Assembly: GCA_030682505.1 (NCBI GenBank)
Contig: JAUXOH010000059.1
Span: 1-40,253, forward strand
Reading direction: 5' to 3'
DNA: 40,253 nt
Source of the DNA: Candidatus Didemnitutus sp.
GTDB taxonomy: Bacteria > Verrucomicrobiota > Verrucomicrobiia > Opitutales > Opitutaceae
A program made the translations under genes and the position numbers. Below, piece after piece: positions 6,146-16,041 of the stretch. Below the pieces are notes generated by a model. The model was not told the origin of the DNA. It searched no databases and worked only from the letters and a program-made list of their open reading frames with translations. How positions within the stretch are numbered: position 1 is the first letter of the stretch; each line of letters starts with the position of its first letter.

Positions 6146-8683
6146 TCAGGTGCTTAACATCCGCTGCAGGACTTCGCGCAATTCCTGCGGACGCGGTGGC
6201 TTGCTCAGAACTGCATCGACCACTGAGGGTGCGTTGCCGTCCTGCTGCATGATCTTGCCCCAGCCAGTGAGCAGCACAATGCGGGCGTGGGGTGCCGTTC
6301 TTTTCAAGGCGGTGGCGAACTGGTTGCCATCCATGCCGGGCATGCCGAGATCGGTGAAGACGACGTCGAAGGCGCGGCCTTGCGCGGCAGCTTCGCGGTA
6401 GAGCCGCAGTCCCTCTTCACCCCCCCCCGCCACGGTCACGTCGTGGCCTTCATGGCGGAACAATGCCTCGAGGACGGTGCGCAACATGGGCTCGTCATCC
6501 ACGCAGAGGACACGACGGACCTCGCCGGCGGCGGCGCGGACGAACGGGTCGTTGGTTGCGGTTTGCTCATGCGCGGTGATCGGAAAAAACAAGCGCATGG
6601 TGGTGCCGCGACCCTTGGCGCTTTCGACGGCGATCCGGCCAACGTGACGTTCCATCACGCCAAAGACCATGGCGAGACCGAGGCCGGTGCCGAGCTGGCC
6701 CTTGGTGGAGAAGAAGGGTTCAAGGCAGCGCGCGCGCGTCTCCTCGTCCATGCCCACGCCGGAATCGCCAACGTCGACGACGACGTGGTCGTTGTCCACG
6801 CGGGTGCGCAGTGTGAGCGTGCCGCCCTGCGGCATGGCGTCGACGGCGTTGAGCACGAGATTGATCAACGCTTCGCGCAACTCGGAGTCGTTTCCGCTGA
6901 CCGAGGGAAGCCCGGGCGCAAACTCGGTGGCGAGATGGATCACCACGCCGCGCGCCTGCGGCATGTCTCGCCATCGCGGGCGGGTGAGTTCGATGACTTG
7001 CTCGACAAGATTCGTAAGATTGAAACTGGAGTGGGCGTCCTGCGTGTCGCGCGGACGGTAGAATTCGCGCAGGCGCGAGACGATTTTTGCAATGTCCCGT
7101 CCGGCGGTGAGCACGTGCCCGAGCTGTTTGCGTCCGTCGGGCGTCAGCCCCTGCTCATGCTCCAGCAGGATGGAGGAGAAGGCGACGACGGGGGTCAGGG
7201 TGTTGTTGATGTCGTGGGCGATGCCGCTCGCCATCTGGCCGAGGGCGCGCAGCCGCTCCTGTTGCATGACGGCGCGCTGGCTCTCGCGCAGCTCGGTGTA
7301 GGCCCGCTGCAACTCGGAGTAGAGGCGCGCCTGCGAGCCGGCGACGGCGACTTGCTCGGCCAGCATGCCGAGGAACTCGCATTCGCCGCTGGAAAACGCG
7401 GACACATTGGCGCGGGCGACGACGAGGAGGCCGAACAAGCGGCGCTCGACCATCAACGGCACGGAGACGACGGAGCGGAGACCGGCCGCGGCGAAATCAG
7501 CGAGCGGAAGAACACGTTGGTTGGCGGTATCGGGAAAATAGGTTTGGTGACCGGTGCGGCAATCAGCGAAGGCGGCCAGGCCGGGGAGAAAGGAGCCCTG
7601 CGGCGCGAGCGGATGCTCCGTGTCCGCCGCGGGGGTGCCGCGCCGCCGGGCGGCGGCGACAACGAGGCTGTCGCCATTGCGGTCGGTGACCGAGACGCTG
7701 CCGAAATCGACCGGCAGGCGCGCCTCGAGCTCGCCGAGCACGATGCGTACGATGCTGTCGAGGTCCTGGCGATTGGCGATGCCGTTGGCGATGCGGTTGA
7801 GGAGGCTGATGCGGGAGAGCTGTTGCTGGAGGGCGTGCTCGGCGGAGATGCGGACGGCGACCTGCTGGCGGAGCTCCGCGGTGCGCTCCTGCACGCGCAG
7901 ATCGAGCTCATCGCGCGCGGCACGCAGCGCGCCGTCTTGTTGCTCGATTTGATGGAGCATCGCGTTGAAACCATTGAAGAGCACGCCAAGTTCGGCGTCG
8001 TGCCCCTGGGGAGCGCGAACCCGGTAGTCTTTCTCCTCGGAAATGCGCCGGGCCACCTCGGCGAGTTCGGCGACGGGGAGGGAAACCACGCGCTGAAAAG
8101 CCGACGAAAGACCGTAAGCCGCGAGGACCGAGATCAAGAGCAGGGCACCGGCGATGACAAGGTAGCGTTGCAAGCGTTCGTCGAGCGAGCGGAGGTCGAT
8201 GGCGAGATGGAGCACCCCGAGAGTGCGATCGCCCCCACCGATGGGGTGGGTGAGTTCCAATCGACCTCCGGTAAAGCGCGGCTTCTCCGCGCCAACGAGC
8301 ACGGGCCGGGAAAATGACGGGGTGCCGGCGCGCCGGTAAAGCGCAAAGGGCGCTCCTTCGCGATAGAGCGTTGCTTCCATCACGTTGGGTTCACCGACCA
8401 AAGCCCCCAGCACCTCGGCGGCGGCGGCTTCGTCATTGAAGGTGAGGGCCGCGGCGGTGCTGTTGCCCACGATGGCCGCCAGGGTGCCGGCATTCTCGAG
8501 TGTGACGCGGCGAAACGTCAGCACATCGTGCAGGATGAAGCCGGTGCAGGCGAGCGCGAGGGCGAAGCAGCTCGTGCCCGTGATGATCAGGGTCAACTTG
8601 CGCTTGATCGAGAGGCGGCGAAACGAACTCGGCAGACGGGAGAGCACGGTATTGCTAGGAAGGACGATCCACTTGGCGGGCAA
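6146..8683 (-). CDS. Hybrid sensor histidine kinase: CHASE8-like sensor - HAMP - GAF - HisKA - HATPase_c - REC
   Basis: Two TMs flanking ALTFNDEAAAAEVLGALVGEPNVMEATLYREGAPFALY; HAMP; GAF; SGIAHDINNTLTPV H-box; NLVLNAVDAMPQGG, GDSGVGMDEE, GTGLGLAMVFG; C-terminal VLCVDDEPMLR...VFTDLGMPGMDG...LSKPPRP receiver. Confidence 0.92.
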   Translation of the reverse strand: MPAKWIVLPSNTVLSRLPSSFRRLSIKRKLTLIITGTSCFALALACTGFILHDVLTFRRVTLENAGTLAAIVGNSTAAALTFNDEAAAAEVLGALVGEPNVMEATLYREGAPFALYRRAGTPSFSRPVLVGAEKPRFTGGRLELTHPIGGGDRTLGVLHLAIDLRSLDERLQRYLVIAGALLLISVLAAYGLSSAFQRVVSLPVAELAEVARRISEEKDYRVRAPQGHDAELGVLFNGFNAMLHQIEQQDGALRAARDELDLRVQERTAELRQQVAVRISAEHALQQQLSRISLLNRIANGIANRQDLDSIVRIVLGELEARLPVDFGSVSVTDRNGDSLVVAAARRRGTPAADTEHPLAPQGSFLPGLAAFADCRTGHQTYFPDTANQRVLPLADFAAAGLRSVVSVPLMVERRLFGLLVVARANVSAFSSGECEFLGMLAEQVAVAGSQARLYSELQRAYTELRESQRAVMQQERLRALGQMASGIAHDINNTLTPVVAFSSILLEHEQGLTPDGRKQLGHVLTAGRDIAKIVSRLREFYRPRDTQDAHSSFNLTNLVEQVIELTRPRWRDMPQARGVVIHLATEFAPGLPSVSGNDSELREALINLVLNAVDAMPQGGTLTLRTRVDNDHVVVDVGDSGVGMDEETRARCLEPFFSTKGQLGTGLGLAMVFGVMERHVGRIAVESAKGRGTTMRLFFPITAHEQTATNDPFVRAAAGEVRRVLCVDDEPMLRTVLEALFRHEGHDVTVAGGGEEGLRLYREAAAQGRAFDVVFTDLGMPGMDGNQFATALKRTAPHARIVLLTGWGKIMQQDGNAPSVVDAVLSKPPRPQELREVLQRMLST

Positions 8684-9236
8684 GACTCAGGAGCTTGGAA
8701 CTCAGGTTGAGTCCGGCGGCGTTGGCGTTGCCGAGGTTGATCTCGAAGCGGACCTTGTTCCGTTCCATGACGAAGCGGATCATGCCGCCGCTTGAGAGAA
8801 GGCTGGCGTCGTTGCCGGCCACCAGGGCCGGACTGCGCGCCTTGCGCAAGGCGGCAAGGTGCTGGGTCATGCGCGACTGCTCGGAGTCGCTGATGAAGAT
8901 GACCTGGCACGAGGCGAGGTCTTCGGCTCGGCTGCCGTGCGCGATCTCAAAGGCGCGCCCCTCCCATTTCTGACCGGCCACGACTTCCGCAAGATCATTC
9001 TGGAAGGGGTCCTCGCCGAGGATGCCAATGCGGATCGGCGCCGTGGCGTCGGGGAAAGCGTGGGCCGGCCAAGTGACATATTTGGCGAAGTTGAAGAGGA
9101 AGGCCGCCTTGACCTGATATTCCGTGGCAGACGGCGTCGCACCAAGGCGGCCAAGGCCCAGCAGCAGCATCGCGATCCACAGGAGGAGACGGCGATCTCG
9201 TCCCGTTCGGTGTCTTGCGACCGGATCAGTAATCAT
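8655..9236 (-). CDS. YfiR family periplasmic protein (DUF4154)
   Basis: Signal sequence then EYQVKAAFLFNFAKYVTWPAHAFPDATAPIRIGILGEDPF...GRAFEIAHGS...CQVIFISDSEQSR; ATG 9236 overlaps the upstream receptor stop. Confidence 0.9.
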   Translation of the reverse strand: MITDPVARHRTGRDRRLLLWIAMLLLGLGRLGATPSATEYQVKAAFLFNFAKYVTWPAHAFPDATAPIRIGILGEDPFQNDLAEVVAGQKWEGRAFEIAHGSRAEDLASCQVIFISDSEQSRMTQHLAALRKARSPALVAGNDASLLSSGGMIRFVMERNKVRFEINLGNANAAGLNLSSKLLSLARQVDRPS

Positions 9237-11274
9237 ACCGGAGACGGATTTGGAAACTGCGACGCACTTCCGTGGGGGGGACGAGGATGGTGCCCGGCGT
9301 GAATTCGGGGTGGTGCGGGTCGGTGAGATTGCGACCGTTGAGCGAGATTTCCCAGCGGGCGGAGGGGTGCCATGCGAGGCGCGCATCGAGTCCGAGGCGG
9401 GCTGGAACACCCAGCGATTCGAGCTGATCGGTGTAACTCGCGCGCCAGTCGAATTCCCAGCTGCGGCCGAGATCATGTTGCGACCAGAAGGAGGCCTGGT
9501 TTCGCGGGCTGCGGCCCTCCTCCGCCTCGGCGTCAATCGATAGGCTGTCGGGTCGGGCAGTGAGGCGCAATTGCAATTGGGAGTAAGTGGCGCGGAGGCG
9601 CCAGGAAGGGGTGACCTGCCAGGCGAGCGAGAGTTCGGCCCCATGGGAGGAGCCGTCCAACATGTTTCCGATGGTGGTGGATACGGTTACGGGGGACGTG
9701 ATGAGCCCGGGAATGGCGAGAGCGCCAAGGAGAGGCAGTGACGAGGGGTCGATCTCGGTGGTGCGCAAGCGCGAGTAGTCGTGATAGAAGACGGCGAGAT
9801 CGATCGACATTCGCGGGTTGGGGCGAAGACGGTAACCGGCCTCGTAGGCGGTCAGGAGTTCGGAATCGAAGGACCGGTTCCCTTGAATGTGGGCAAAGAG
9901 GATCGGCAGGCTGGTCAATTGATGCAGTGTAATGTCGGCATCCGACCGGGAGGGTGTGCGGGCGGCGCGGGCTACCGAAGTCCACAGGGTGTGTTGCTCG
10001 TTGGGGGTCCAGAGAAGCCGGGATCCGGGTTGAACCTCCCAGCCGGTGAAATCGTTGCGCTCGAACTTGGAACCGATGATGAGGTGGAGCACATCTTGGC
10101 GCAGCGGAATGTCATCTTGGAGGAAGACGTTCCAAAGATCGGTGCGGCGGCTGGCGGGATTCAACGAAACGGTTGGCGTGTTTCCAACGTCGTCGACCGT
10201 CGTGCGGAAGCCGGTGCCAAGGGTCAATTTTTGGCCATTGGCAGCGATGAACCCGTGCTGCGCCTCAAGATCGAAGGTCTGGCGGTCTTCCCGAAAAATG
10301 GCGGTGTCGCGGTGGGTGTAGTCGAAGTAGCCCTGCACCATTAACTCGCCTCCGAGCACCTCGGGACGCGTCCAGCGGGCGAGGAGGTTGGTACCGGCGA
10401 GGCGGGGTTCATCAACGACCGGGGCGAAATAGGGCGGAGCGGAATTGGGGATCAGGAAGACGGTGTGTTGGCGTCCGGCATAGGCGTCGCCCTGCACGGT
10501 AAGGAGGGCGCCGTTCGTGTCCGTGCGATCAAAGCGGAAGCCCGTCTGGGCAAGTTTCCAGCTGTCGAGTCCGCGGCCGCCGCCGGCGAGTTCGGATTCA
10601 GCATAGCGGGAATACTTCGCATAAACGCGATAATGGGAGGTCTGGGAGAGTGCGGCACCGTAGCGGACAGTGAGCGAACCCGCCGAGTCGGTGCCCGCGA
10701 CGGTCGACACCATCGTGCCGACGGTTTGCGCCGCAGTCTTGGTGAGAATATTGATCACGCCGTTGACGGCGTTGGCACCCCACAGGGTCGCTCCGGGGCC
10801 GCGGACCACCTCGATGCGTTCGATGTCTTCCAGAACGGTGTCTTGAGCATCCCAAAAAACTCCGGAAAACAAAGGCGTGTAGAGGCTGCGGCCATCCCGC
10901 AACACGAGCAATTTGTTGGCAAAGACATCGGGGAAGCCGCGGGCGCTGATGGCCCAACTATGGGCGTCGACGGCGGCCACTTGCATTCCGGGCACGAGGC
11001 GAAGGGCGTCGGGGAGGTTGCCTGAACCCGAGCGCCGCAAGTCATCCGTCGTCAGGGCCGAAACCGCGGCGGGGGCGAGAGCCAATTTTTCGGGGTGCTT
11101 GGAAACTGAGGTGATCTCGATCTGCAAGAGCTCTTCGAGCGACATTTCGGCCAAGTTGGAATCTGATGCCCGCTGAGCTGAAAGCGGCAGGCTTAGTGCG
11201 GAAAAAACACCGAAAACGACGATGAGCCGGGTAGGCGAACAGGCCGGGCGGCCCACTTGCATTAATTTAGTCAT
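9226..11274 (-). CDS. TonB-dependent receptor
   Basis: Plug domain SLEELLQIEITSVSKHPEKLALAPAAVSALTTDDLRRSGSGNLPDALRLVPGMQVA; IERIEVVRGPGATLWGANAVNGVINILTK; C-terminal aromatic IRLRYDY. Confidence 0.93.
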   Translation of the reverse strand: MTKLMQVGRPACSPTRLIVVFGVFSALSLPLSAQRASDSNLAEMSLEELLQIEITSVSKHPEKLALAPAAVSALTTDDLRRSGSGNLPDALRLVPGMQVAAVDAHSWAISARGFPDVFANKLLVLRDGRSLYTPLFSGVFWDAQDTVLEDIERIEVVRGPGATLWGANAVNGVINILTKTAAQTVGTMVSTVAGTDSAGSLTVRYGAALSQTSHYRVYAKYSRYAESELAGGGRGLDSWKLAQTGFRFDRTDTNGALLTVQGDAYAGRQHTVFLIPNSAPPYFAPVVDEPRLAGTNLLARWTRPEVLGGELMVQGYFDYTHRDTAIFREDRQTFDLEAQHGFIAANGQKLTLGTGFRTTVDDVGNTPTVSLNPASRRTDLWNVFLQDDIPLRQDVLHLIIGSKFERNDFTGWEVQPGSRLLWTPNEQHTLWTSVARAARTPSRSDADITLHQLTSLPILFAHIQGNRSFDSELLTAYEAGYRLRPNPRMSIDLAVFYHDYSRLRTTEIDPSSLPLLGALAIPGLITSPVTVSTTIGNMLDGSSHGAELSLAWQVTPSWRLRATYSQLQLRLTARPDSLSIDAEAEEGRSPRNQASFWSQHDLGRSWEFDWRASYTDQLESLGVPARLGLDARLAWHPSARWEISLNGRNLTDPHHPEFTPGTILVPPTEVRRSFQIRLRYDY

Positions 11275-11510: not shown

Positions 11511-13622
11511 CTATTCTTTCTTCGCGTCGAAGTTGGGTTTTTCGAGCGTGGGTTTGCCGCCGATGTGGCGGCTGAGCCAGCTTTGCATTTCCCAGTGCCA
11601 GTAGATGCCGTTCTGCGGGGTCAAAATCCAGTGGTTCTCGTTGGGAAAGATGACGAGGCGCGAGGGTACGCCGAGGGCTTGCAGCACGCCGTAGAGTTCG
11701 AGGCCGTTGCCGTAGGGCACGCGGTAATCGAGTTCGCCATGCAGCACGAGGGTGGGGGTCTTGAAGTGCTTGGCGTAGAACATCGGGTTCTGTCGCTGCA
11801 TCCCCTCGAGGTTGTCCCACGCTTTGCCGCCCATGACCTCGGGGAAGCCGTGCGGCACGTCGGCGGCGTATTGCGCGTAGGAGCTGTTCACGCCGGCGTG
11901 GTTGATGATGGCCTTGAAGCGATCCGTGTGTCCGAGCACCCAGGCTGCCATGTAGCCGCCGTAGCTCGCACCCGCGGCGGCGAGGCGGTTGCGATCGATG
12001 TTGGGAAAGCGCGCGAGGAGGTGGTCCGTGGACTTCATGATGTCCTCGAACGGCATGTCGCCCCACTCGTTGACGATGCTCATGGCGAACTTCTCGCTGA
12101 ACCCGGTTGAGCCGTGGCGATTCACCCACGTGACGATGTAACCGGGCGCGGCGAACAACTGGGTGTTCCAACGGTAGCTCCACGAATCGCGGCACATCGT
12201 GTGCGGGCCACCGTGCATCAGCTGCACCAAGGGGTAGGTCTTGGTGGCGTCGTAGCCCGGGGGCAGCACGAGCCAGCCATGGATGTCGTGGCCCTTCGCG
12301 CCCTTGAACCAGTAGCTCTCGACTTGGCCGAGGGCGAACTGGGCCATGCAGGCGTCGTTGAAATGCGTGAGCTGGCGCGTGGCGCCGGTCGCGGGTTCGT
12401 GTACGAAGAGTTCGTTGGGGCGGTTGGTCGTATCGTTGAGGAACACGAGATGGCCGGTGCCGACCTCGACGTTGGAAGAGGTGCCGGCACCATAAACCGC
12501 GGTCAGACCCGTGCCGTCGAGCGCGAGACGAAAGACGGGAACGTAGCCCTTTTCCTCGGCGACGACCCAGAGGAATCTGCCGTCGGCGGCGAACTTGGTC
12601 TCGGCGATCGAGTAGTCGAGCGACGGGTTGAGCTCGGTGTTGGTGCCGGTGGCGAAGTTGTGCCGCCAGAGCTTGGAGAACTCGCCGTTATGGATCGTCT
12701 CCTCGGTGCGCGTGTAAAGGAGGGAGCGGCCATCCGGAGAGAAGACCGGCCCCGAGTCGCTGCCGAGGTTGTCGGTCGTGAGATTCTTCCACTCCCCGGA
12801 ACCATTGGTCGGCACGAGATAGAGGTCGGCGTTGTGGTGACCGGCGTAGGGCCGCGGGGTGGTGTTGTAAACGAGCGCGATGGACCCGCCGTCCGGCGAA
12901 ACCTCGAAATTGGTGGTGCCGGATACCGAGAACAACTGCGTCGCCTTGGGGGTCAGATCAACGAAGTCCTTGGTCGCGACGTCCACCTTGAGCAGCCGTT
13001 GGGCGAGGTTGTCGGTCAGCCAATGATCGAAGAAACGATACTGCCGGTCTTCGGTGACCTTGGCGGTCATCTTCGAGTCCTTGCGGCGCTTGATCTCCTT
13101 CTTCATCGCCGCGAGATCGGTCTTTGCCCACTGGCCGACCAATTCGGGAATGACCGACGTGGCGACGACGAGGTGGTTTCCGTCGGGCAGCCACTTGGGT
13201 GCGGAGATCGAGTAGGGGAGCTCGAGGATCTTCTCGGCTTCGCCGCCGCCGAAAGGAATGACGTAGAGCGCTGCGGCCTCGTCTTCGCCGCGCTTGGAAG
13301 TGAACGCGATGCGACTGCCGTCGGGGCTCCACGCCGGCGAGCCATCGCTGGCGTTCGCGGTGGTCAGGCGACGCGTGGTGCCGCTGGCAACATCCACCAG
13401 CCAGAGATTGGTCGTGCTCTTGTTTTTCTCGATCGACCACTCCTGCACGGTGAAGACGACGGTCCGGTCATCGGGCGACAAGGCGGGACTGCCGAGGCGT
13501 TTGATCGCCCAGAGATCCTGCGGGGTGAGGAGCCGCTGGTCGGCGGCAAACGCGGTGAGGGAGAAGGCGACCGCGATGAGGAGAACAATCAGACGACGGG
13601 GTTGCATGTTGCCGCCAGCCAA
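11511..13622 (-). CDS. S9 family serine peptidase (acylaminoacyl/dipeptidyl peptidase type)
   Basis: WD40-like propeller (SPDDRTVVF, SPAWSPDGSRIAFTSKRGED); catalytic GASYGGYMAAWVLGH, ELDYRVPY, NENHW. Probable ATG at 13607. Confidence 0.92.
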   Translation of the reverse strand: MAGGNMQPRRLIVLLIAVAFSLTAFAADQRLLTPQDLWAIKRLGSPALSPDDRTVVFTVQEWSIEKNKSTTNLWLVDVASGTTRRLTTANASDGSPAWSPDGSRIAFTSKRGEDEAAALYVIPFGGGEAEKILELPYSISAPKWLPDGNHLVVATSVIPELVGQWAKTDLAAMKKEIKRRKDSKMTAKVTEDRQYRFFDHWLTDNLAQRLLKVDVATKDFVDLTPKATQLFSVSGTTNFEVSPDGGSIALVYNTTPRPYAGHHNADLYLVPTNGSGEWKNLTTDNLGSDSGPVFSPDGRSLLYTRTEETIHNGEFSKLWRHNFATGTNTELNPSLDYSIAETKFAADGRFLWVVAEEKGYVPVFRLALDGTGLTAVYGAGTSSNVEVGTGHLVFLNDTTNRPNELFVHEPATGATRQLTHFNDACMAQFALGQVESYWFKGAKGHDIHGWLVLPPGYDATKTYPLVQLMHGGPHTMCRDSWSYRWNTQLFAAPGYIVTWVNRHGSTGFSEKFAMSIVNEWGDMPFEDIMKSTDHLLARFPNIDRNRLAAAGASYGGYMAAWVLGHTDRFKAIINHAGVNSSYAQYAADVPHGFPEVMGGKAWDNLEGMQRQNPMFYAKHFKTPTLVLHGELDYRVPYGNGLELYGVLQALGVPSRLVIFPNENHWILTPQNGIYWHWEMQSWLSRHIGGKPTLEKPNFDAKKE

Positions 13623-14475: not shown

Positions 14476-16041
14476 CTACCGGCCCGGCGTATCAAGCAGG
14501 GTGCGCACGGCGCGCAACAGGGCGCTGAGGGCAAATGGCTTGGGCAGGTGGTGCACCGAGCGGGGCGGCAGTCCCGTCAGCGCCGCACCCAGCGGTTCGA
14601 CCGACACCATCAGGATGCGCAGCCGGCTGTTCGCCTTGGCGAGGGCCCGGACCAACCGGGCGGAATCGCCGGTGTTGCCATCGAGCAACACAAGGTGGGG
14701 CGGAGCAGATTTGCCGACATTCGCCAACGCCAGACCGGCGTTGGTGTATTCGACGACTTGGTAACCGTCGACGGCCAGCATGCCACTGACCATTTTGCGG
14801 AGCACTGCATCGGATTCGACGATCCAGATCAGCTCAGTGCCCTTGCTGGAGGGCAGGCTGGGCAGGGCGCTGTTGAAGGCCTGCTCGGGCTCCGCCGTCT
14901 CCGGCAGAAGGATCTGAAACGTAGTGCCGACCTCCGGTTTGCTTTCCACCGTCATCGAGCCTTCCGCGCCACGGATGATGCCGCTGGCCATCGCCAAGCC
15001 GAGTCCGGTGCCGTGGGCCTTGGTGGTGAAGAACGGCTCGAACATGTGCGCGACGGTGGCAGCATCCATGCCGATGCCGGTGTCGGTCACCGCGATGCCA
15101 ATATAGCGGCCGGGGATGAGGCCCTCCGCGGCCTTCGTCTGCACGTGATTGAAGGTGCGCAACTGCAGCTTGCCGCCCTGCGGCATCGCATCACGGGCGT
15201 TGAAACAGAGGTTGAGCAAGACCTGTTGGAATTGCGTCGGGTCGATGCGCAGATTCCCCAGATCCGAGGAAAGGCGCAGTTCCAGATTCACGCCGTCCCC
15301 GACCACGCGCCGCAAGATGTCGGCGATCTCGCGGATCAGGATATTCACGCTGACCACGCGGACCTCCGATTCCTGTCGCCGGCTGAATTCGAGGATCTGG
15401 CGGGCAAGCGCGGCGGCCTTGATGCCGGCGCGGTGGATTTCCTGCAGATCCCTCTTGGCGGCGGGCGGACCCGAGATCTTTCCCGCGAGAATTTCGCAGT
15501 AGCCGTTGATGATCGAAAGGAGGTTGTTGAAATCATGCGCGACGCCGCTCGTCAGTTGACCGACCGTGTCGAGCTTCTGGGTGTGAATCATCGCGTCCCG
15601 CAGCCGTTGTCGTTCCGAGGCGTCCCGATAGATCGCGACCAGATAGCCCTTGTGCAACGGGTTGATGCGCCAGTCGGCGTAGAACGCCACTCCGTCCTTC
15701 CGGTGCAGCCAATTCTCGCCGTCCATGATGCGACGCTTCTCGCTGACGGCGGAAACCTTGGGGGCCAGCGCAGTCTTGGGACCGTGCAAGATCCGCGTAT
15801 GCTTGCCGACGAGTTCCGCCGGAGTGTAGCCGGTGAGGGTCGCAAAACACTCGTTGGCAAAAACGATCTCAACCCCGCCACCCACGCACTTGTCGCGGGT
15901 CACCAAGGCCGCTTCGGGCAGGGCGGCGAGGGTCGCAATCGCCCCGGCCAGCGTGGAGTCGGCCGGCGAATTCCTTCGGGGTTTGGGGGATGGGCGTGGC
16001 ACCGGGGTTGAGTTGAGAAACAAGGCAGAAAACAGCTGCAT
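14476..16041 (-). CDS. PAS domain sensor histidine kinase with C-terminal receiver-like domain
   Basis: PAS (IVFANECFATLTGYTPAELVGKHTRILHGPKT), SGVAHDFNNLLSIINGYCEIL H-box, NLCFNARDAMPQGG, GTGLGLAMASGI, then IWIVESDAVLRKM...LVLLDGNTG...HLPKPFAL. Confidence 0.9.
   Translation of the reverse strand: MQLFSALFLNSTPVPRPSPKPRRNSPADSTLAGAIATLAALPEAALVTRDKCVGGGVEIVFANECFATLTGYTPAELVGKHTRILHGPKTALAPKVSAVSEKRRIMDGENWLHRKDGVAFYADWRINPLHKGYLVAIYRDASERQRLRDAMIHTQKLDTVGQLTSGVAHDFNNLLSIINGYCEILAGKISGPPAAKRDLQEIHRAGIKAAALARQILEFSRRQESEVRVVSVNILIREIADILRRVVGDGVNLELRLSSDLGNLRIDPTQFQQVLLNLCFNARDAMPQGGKLQLRTFNHVQTKAAEGLIPGRYIGIAVTDTGIGMDAATVAHMFEPFFTTKAHGTGLGLAMASGIIRGAEGSMTVESKPEVGTTFQILLPETAEPEQAFNSALPSLPSSKGTELIWIVESDAVLRKMVSGMLAVDGYQVVEYTNAGLALANVGKSAPPHLVLLDGNTGDSARLVRALAKANSRLRILMVSVEPLGAALTGLPPRSVHHLPKPFALSALLRAVRTLLDTPGR

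Follow-up and report, generated by a model that had tools for sequence, protein, structure and literature searches.

The window, that is, the whole 40,253-nucleotide stretch of Candidatus Didemnitutus DNA analyzed here, contains at positions 6146–11274 of the minus strand three genes with overlapping ends that, judging from open reading frames and Pfam matches, encode a TonB-dependent receptor, a YfiR-like protein, and a hybrid kinase, in this order (Table 1). The first-pass annotation had described the same genes, positions, and domains. The ATG at 9236, which sits within the 3' end of the receptor gene, is most likely the start of the YfiR-like gene. On the same strand, 236 bp upstream of the receptor, lies a gene for an S9-family prolyl oligopeptidase-type protein (11511–13622), and another minus-strand kinase gene (14476–16041; PAS-HisKA-HATPase and a weak receiver match) is located away from the cassette.

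Table 1 Features of the receptor–YfiR–kinase cassette (window coordinates)
Feature	Position	Strand	Basis or remark
TonB-dependent receptor, 682 aa, TOL_0244 type, no STN	9226–11274	-	Pfam, NCBIfam NF053590
Conserved N-terminal segment of receptor, SLEELLQIEITSVSKHPE, TonB box-like by inspection	11089–11142	-	Conserved across cassette receptors
YfiR-like periplasmic protein, 193 aa	8655–9236	-	PF13689, NF053591
YfiR-like N-terminus, signal-peptide-like	9135–9236	-	
YfiR-like C-terminal helix, domain positions K145 (8694–8696) and S148 (8685–8687); predicted kinase-docking face	8685–8696	-	Top two CHASE8-covarying positions
Hybrid sensor kinase, 845 aa (TTG 8683) or 833 aa (GTG 8647)	6146–8683 or 6146–8647	-	Pfam
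CHASE8 periplasmic domain, between transmembrane helices 8522–8599 and 8105–8173	8204–8515	-	PF17152
AAALTF motif of CHASE8, equivalent to AAVVF, the YfiR-binding motif of YfiN	8438–8455	-	Alignment with Pseudomonas-type YfiN
HAMP	7940–8092	-	PF00672, 6.5e-8
GAF	7340–7768	-	PF01590, 1e-13
HisKA (H490, TTG numbering) and HATPase_c	6575–7243	-	HisKA 1.3e-7, HATPase 1.1e-21
Receiver (REC) domain	6167–6511	-	PF00072, 1.7e-18

The receptor, correctly recognized at first pass as the outer-membrane neighbor, matches the Pfam plug (7.5e-20) and barrel (2.6e-27) profiles and scores 658.2 bits with NCBIfam NF053590, above the curated cutoff of 645. No match to the STN domain was detected in this receptor or in the 31 cassette receptors scanned. 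From its sequence, we infer that the conserved N-terminal segment is the TonB box.

The YfiR-like protein matches Pfam DUF4154 (PF13689, YfiR/HmsC-like; 7.1e-43, 146.6 bits, cutoff 24.9) and NCBIfam NF053591 (TOL_0243 YfiR-like; 154.4 bits, cutoff 125) but falls below the cutoff for YfiR proper (NF053586; 29.1 bits versus 85). By NCBI's models, this is a TOL_0243-type YfiR-like protein and not YfiR proper. Its AlphaFold model (pLDDT 96) has YfiR as the nearest PDB folds, with a TM score of about 0.7 to Pseudomonas aeruginosa YfiR; further fold matches are substrate-binding proteins with a single lobe and the lobes of ABC substrate-binding proteins (5z6v, 3lft, 3lkv). For the single-domain protein 5z6v, the resemblance is limited to the fold, and a YfiR profile search of PDB sequences did not retrieve it.

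The sensor of the kinase passes the profile search for CHASE8, the domain proposed at first pass (PF17152; E-value 2.8e-13 to 2.6e-12), scoring 47.3 bits where 27 is the cutoff; failure of this profile, named as a refuting outcome in the first-pass annotation, did not occur, and the sensor is CHASE8 as proposed. In the AlphaFold model of the kinase N-terminus (pLDDT 90), two long helices surround a PAS/CACHE-like sheet. The GAF-HisKA-HATPase-REC output in place of GGDEF was likewise borne out by Pfam, and D778 is the likely phospho-acceptor of the receiver. The kinase matches NCBIfam NF053592, a model of the sensor region, over the full length (1–223) with 188.2 bits, just under the cutoff of 194, which by profile makes it a relative of this family, not a member by cutoff.

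Distribution and variants of the cassette

The assembly contains only two YfiR (DUF4154) genes and two CHASE8 genes, and these form two adjacent pairs. In the second pair, on contig C215, a receptor is directly upstream and a CHASE8-HAMP-PAS-kinase downstream; the receptor (536 versus 645) and the kinase (153 versus 194) of this copy score under the NCBIfam cutoffs. Given that the genome's only two genes of each kind pair up, each with a plug-domain receptor upstream, the YfiR-CHASE8 adjacency exceeds chance. Among the 19 plug-domain receptors of the genome, the two from the cassettes score 219–224 bits and the next one 56 with a cassette plug profile that was built partly from receptors it then scored.

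We counted matches above cutoff in 241 Verrucomicrobiota genomes, of which 28 carry YfiR and 30 carry CHASE8, such that 27 have both, 1 has YfiR only, 3 have CHASE8 only, and 210 have neither (Fisher p = 3e-31). A CHASE8 gene lies within 1.5 kb of 39 of the 44 YfiR genes in this phylum and within 4.5 kb of 40; of the remaining four, one is cut off from its surroundings by the end of a contig, one lacks a CHASE8 neighbor, and two are cis fusions with a kinase. When the 40 CHASE8 partners were aligned, 39 had HATPase_c, one an MCP signaling domain, and none GGDEF. The distribution is patchy, since both other sampled genomes of the genus lack YfiR and CHASE8. CHASE8 kinases also occur without an adjoining YfiR gene (loci L077–L085).

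A receptor is directly upstream, on the same strand, of 31 of the 44 Verrucomicrobiota YfiR genes, and several YfiR-kinase pairs have no adjacent receptor, which counts against the receptor step of the relay considered below. Conversely, 23 of the 34 Verrucomicrobiota receptors of the cassette subfamily adjoin YfiR, which speaks for the relay, and the 11 without such a neighbor speak against it. Cassette-subfamily receptors without YfiR include those in loci L319, L323 (genome G236), L320, and L321; the receptor of L319, like that of L323, is directly followed by a histidine kinase.

A survey of gene neighborhoods in public genomes, the check named in the first-pass annotation, yielded 80 loci, many of them in metagenome bins; because its starting point was an alignment of Verrucomicrobiota sequences (10 rows of YfiR), it is not an unbiased census. 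The full trio of receptor, YfiR, and CHASE8 kinase was found in ten named phyla, namely, Verrucomicrobiota, Acidobacteriota, Gemmatimonadota, Bacteroidota, Pseudomonadota, Nitrospirota, Myxococcota, Ignavibacteriota, Planctomycetota, and Thermodesulfobacteriota, as well as in candidate division FCPU426. Among the 60 Pseudomonadota YfiR loci examined, the partner within 2 kb is a kinase in 31 and a GGDEF protein in 19; an OmpA gene, called by motif search rather than by profile, appears only with GGDEF (11 loci), and four GGDEF loci have a receptor directly upstream. On a FastTree tree of 186 YfiR sequences, GGDEF requires 6 changes and OmpA versus TonB 1; this tree is unrooted with few resolved forks, so that the order of the states is not readable from it. 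Judging from the sequences compared, the kinase form is the common one across phyla, and in Pseudomonadota, YfiBNR with its GGDEF and OmpA partners makes up a single branch beside the kinase trio. The kinase partner suggested at first pass is retained; the description of YfiR control as "rewired" to it is overstated, since the word implies that this organism departed from the YfiBNR plan.

Other outputs and architectures were encountered as well. In locus L042 (3281–4978), a YfiR-associated CHASE8-HAMP protein carries, according to Pfam, a C-terminal MCP chemotaxis signaling domain that replaces the kinase, and L106 and L112 group with this locus on the YfiR tree. In four loci (L072:1–2043, L074:5002–7749, L267:3120–5090, and L268:2545–5187), YfiR and a histidine kinase are parts of one protein, linked by a coiled-coil-like stretch and a transmembrane helix; these cis fusions lack CHASE8. 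An apparent receptor-YfiR fusion in L138 was rejected because the frame crosses assembly gaps read as X.

The predicted docking site

In Pseudomonas, the YfiR-YfiN contact has been mapped genetically; on the YfiN side it involves the AAVVF motif, and on the YfiR side the C-terminal part (Malone 2012, PMC3375315). Of the 164 kinase-type sensors, 161 retain the phenylalanine of the AAxxF motif, as do all 19 of the GGDEF type. We calculated APC-corrected mutual information for 34,040 YfiR × CHASE8 column pairs from 199 operons; the top pairs, 148-66 (z 7.1) and 145-56 (z 6.5), are beside this motif, so that the strongest covariations in the alignments fall at the genetically mapped interface. Thirty shuffled pairings gave maxima with a mean of 5.1 and a highest value of 6.3 against the observed 7.1, and the control comparison of YfiR with the kinase catalytic domain from the same operons reached 5.0; in the kinase-only subset, one shuffle rose to 6.8 versus the observed 7.2. 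R148 accompanies D66 in 50 of the 51 cases of D, and K145 accompanies T56 in 71 of 78 cases; the window residues, K145/A56 and S148/A66, differ from these common pairings. Mean-field DCA on 107–199 paired operons did not separate YfiR × CHASE8 from shuffles or from the YfiR × kinase control, and when the tree was taken into account, a sign test of the K145-T56 pair gave a borderline result (median p 0.06). Altogether, with a modest APC-MI separation, covariation lends moderate support to the docking site and supplies named residues for a direct test of YfiR-CHASE8 binding.

Taken together, the conservation of the operon, the covariation at the known YfiR-YfiN interface, and the YfiR-kinase fusions support regulation of the kinase by the YfiR-like protein, and these comparisons suggest that its target is most likely a kinase rather than a diguanylate cyclase. 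Redox control through the disulfide that stabilizes YfiR (Cys145-Cys152; PMC4655355) appears unlikely here, given that the cysteine pair is found in only 1 of 164 kinase-class sequences versus 13 of 19 in the GGDEF class; the window protein has L and R in these columns.

A putative relay and its alternatives

We propose a three-protein relay from the outer membrane through the periplasm to the cytoplasm, a model that, as a whole, we regard as fairly probable. The receptor would bind an extracellular substrate, and its occupied or TonB-engaged state would set the amount of the YfiR-like protein free to reach the inner membrane. There, the C-terminal helix of this protein would dock on the AAxxF hinge of CHASE8 and thereby set HAMP and the autophosphorylation of H490, from which the phosphate would pass to the C-terminal receiver and then to a further partner. 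The scheme builds on the observed domains, the operon with its second copy in this genome and its conservation in other phyla, the distinct plug scores of the cassette receptors, and the covariation and conserved motif at the docking site. Physical YfiR-CHASE8 binding, a receptor-YfiR contact, the ligand, and the target are the parts of this scheme that we infer; by analogy with YfiN, the control would be repressive.

Capture and release of the YfiR-like protein by the receptor itself, depending on ligand or TonB state, is the more tentative part, which we consider somewhat doubtful. The top pair in the YfiR × receptor plug comparison (z 7.4) was judged too weak against a shuffled maximum of 6.5 in 107 operons; in this set, no covariation signal for a receptor-YfiR contact was clear of the controls. 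This result also fits a reading in which the receptor only imports the ligand, and the YfiR-like protein binds this ligand and in turn switches the kinase without touching the receptor, as does the match of the predicted YfiR-like fold to one lobe of substrate-binding proteins. However, we know of no ligand for any YfiR-family protein. In crystal structures of YfiR bound to YfiB, furthermore, the C-terminal region of YfiR is used for contact between proteins (PMC4655355), and we consider substrate sensing by the YfiR-like protein rather unlikely. It is very unlikely that the receptor is instead the regulated output, its expression being adjusted by a YfiR-like protein and kinase that sense the envelope state: two-component genes commonly adjoin their targets, but here the receptor gene heads an overlapping operon with the regulators, and one receptor subfamily is kept across phyla. 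The sevenfold increase of the Thalassolituus oleivorans receptor TOL_0244, the namesake of the family, on n-C28 alkane (PMC6304351) would be compatible with such regulation.

The cassette occurs commonly among environmental bacteria from many phyla. If the proposed relay works, an outer-membrane receptor is linked to a kinase by one small soluble protein, and the outputs (kinase, GGDEF, and MCP) have been swapped over evolution. Capture and release by the receptor, if true, would be a third inward route for TonB receptors besides STN/FecR and the carbohydrate hybrid systems.

Relationship to known systems

By analogy with TonB-receptor transducers of the FecA-FecR-FecI type, the outer-membrane receptor of the cassette is proposed to signal inward; FecA-type receptors, however, have an STN domain, whereas the window receptor has none and the relay would consist of the YfiR-like protein and the kinase. 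At the level of the receptor alone, the cassette also resembles OmpS of Alcanivorax dieselolei, a TonB-dependent receptor that is 40.3% similar to TOL_0244 and was reported to detect alkanes and trigger chemotaxis (PMC6304351).

The window trio is one copy of a widespread, catalogued putative signaling cassette, not a one-off rewiring, and the first-pass interpretation as a whole is partly supported. In an in silico comparison that included Opitutus terrae, Malone 2012 (PMC3375315) already reported divergent Yfi systems that lack YfiB and whose output is a kinase, HPT, or MCP; like the window, they combine YfiR with a YfiN-type sensor, but that text has 0 occurrences of a TonB receptor, which the window has. 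NCBIfam release 20 (2026) contains models for all three proteins (NF053590, receptor; NF053591, YfiR-like; NF053592, sensor histidine kinase, YfiR-like protein-associated), which name the families by association; the window proteins match them best or near-best, the receptor and YfiR-like protein above the cutoffs and the kinase just under, and matches extend to the other copy in this genome and to Pseudomonadota and Bacteroidota loci. In open-access PMC text, we found no paper that tests the function of the trio or that connects a TonB receptor to YfiR or YfiN.

YfiBNR of Pseudomonas and enterobacteria (YfiN/TpbB, YfiR, YfiB) shares with the window a YfiR-family protein beside a CHASE8-HAMP membrane signal protein, with conserved AAxxF motif and C-terminal YfiR face. 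It differs in having GGDEF instead of GAF-HisKA-HATPase-REC as output, the Cys145-Cys152 disulfide that the window protein lacks, and, at the operon level, the OmpA lipoprotein YfiB where the window has a TonB receptor as the outer-membrane gene. To these earlier descriptions, the present analysis adds the covariation at the known interface, the near-invariant AAxxF motif in kinase-type sensors, the absence of the disulfide from the kinase class, and the mapping of the OmpA partner to one branch.
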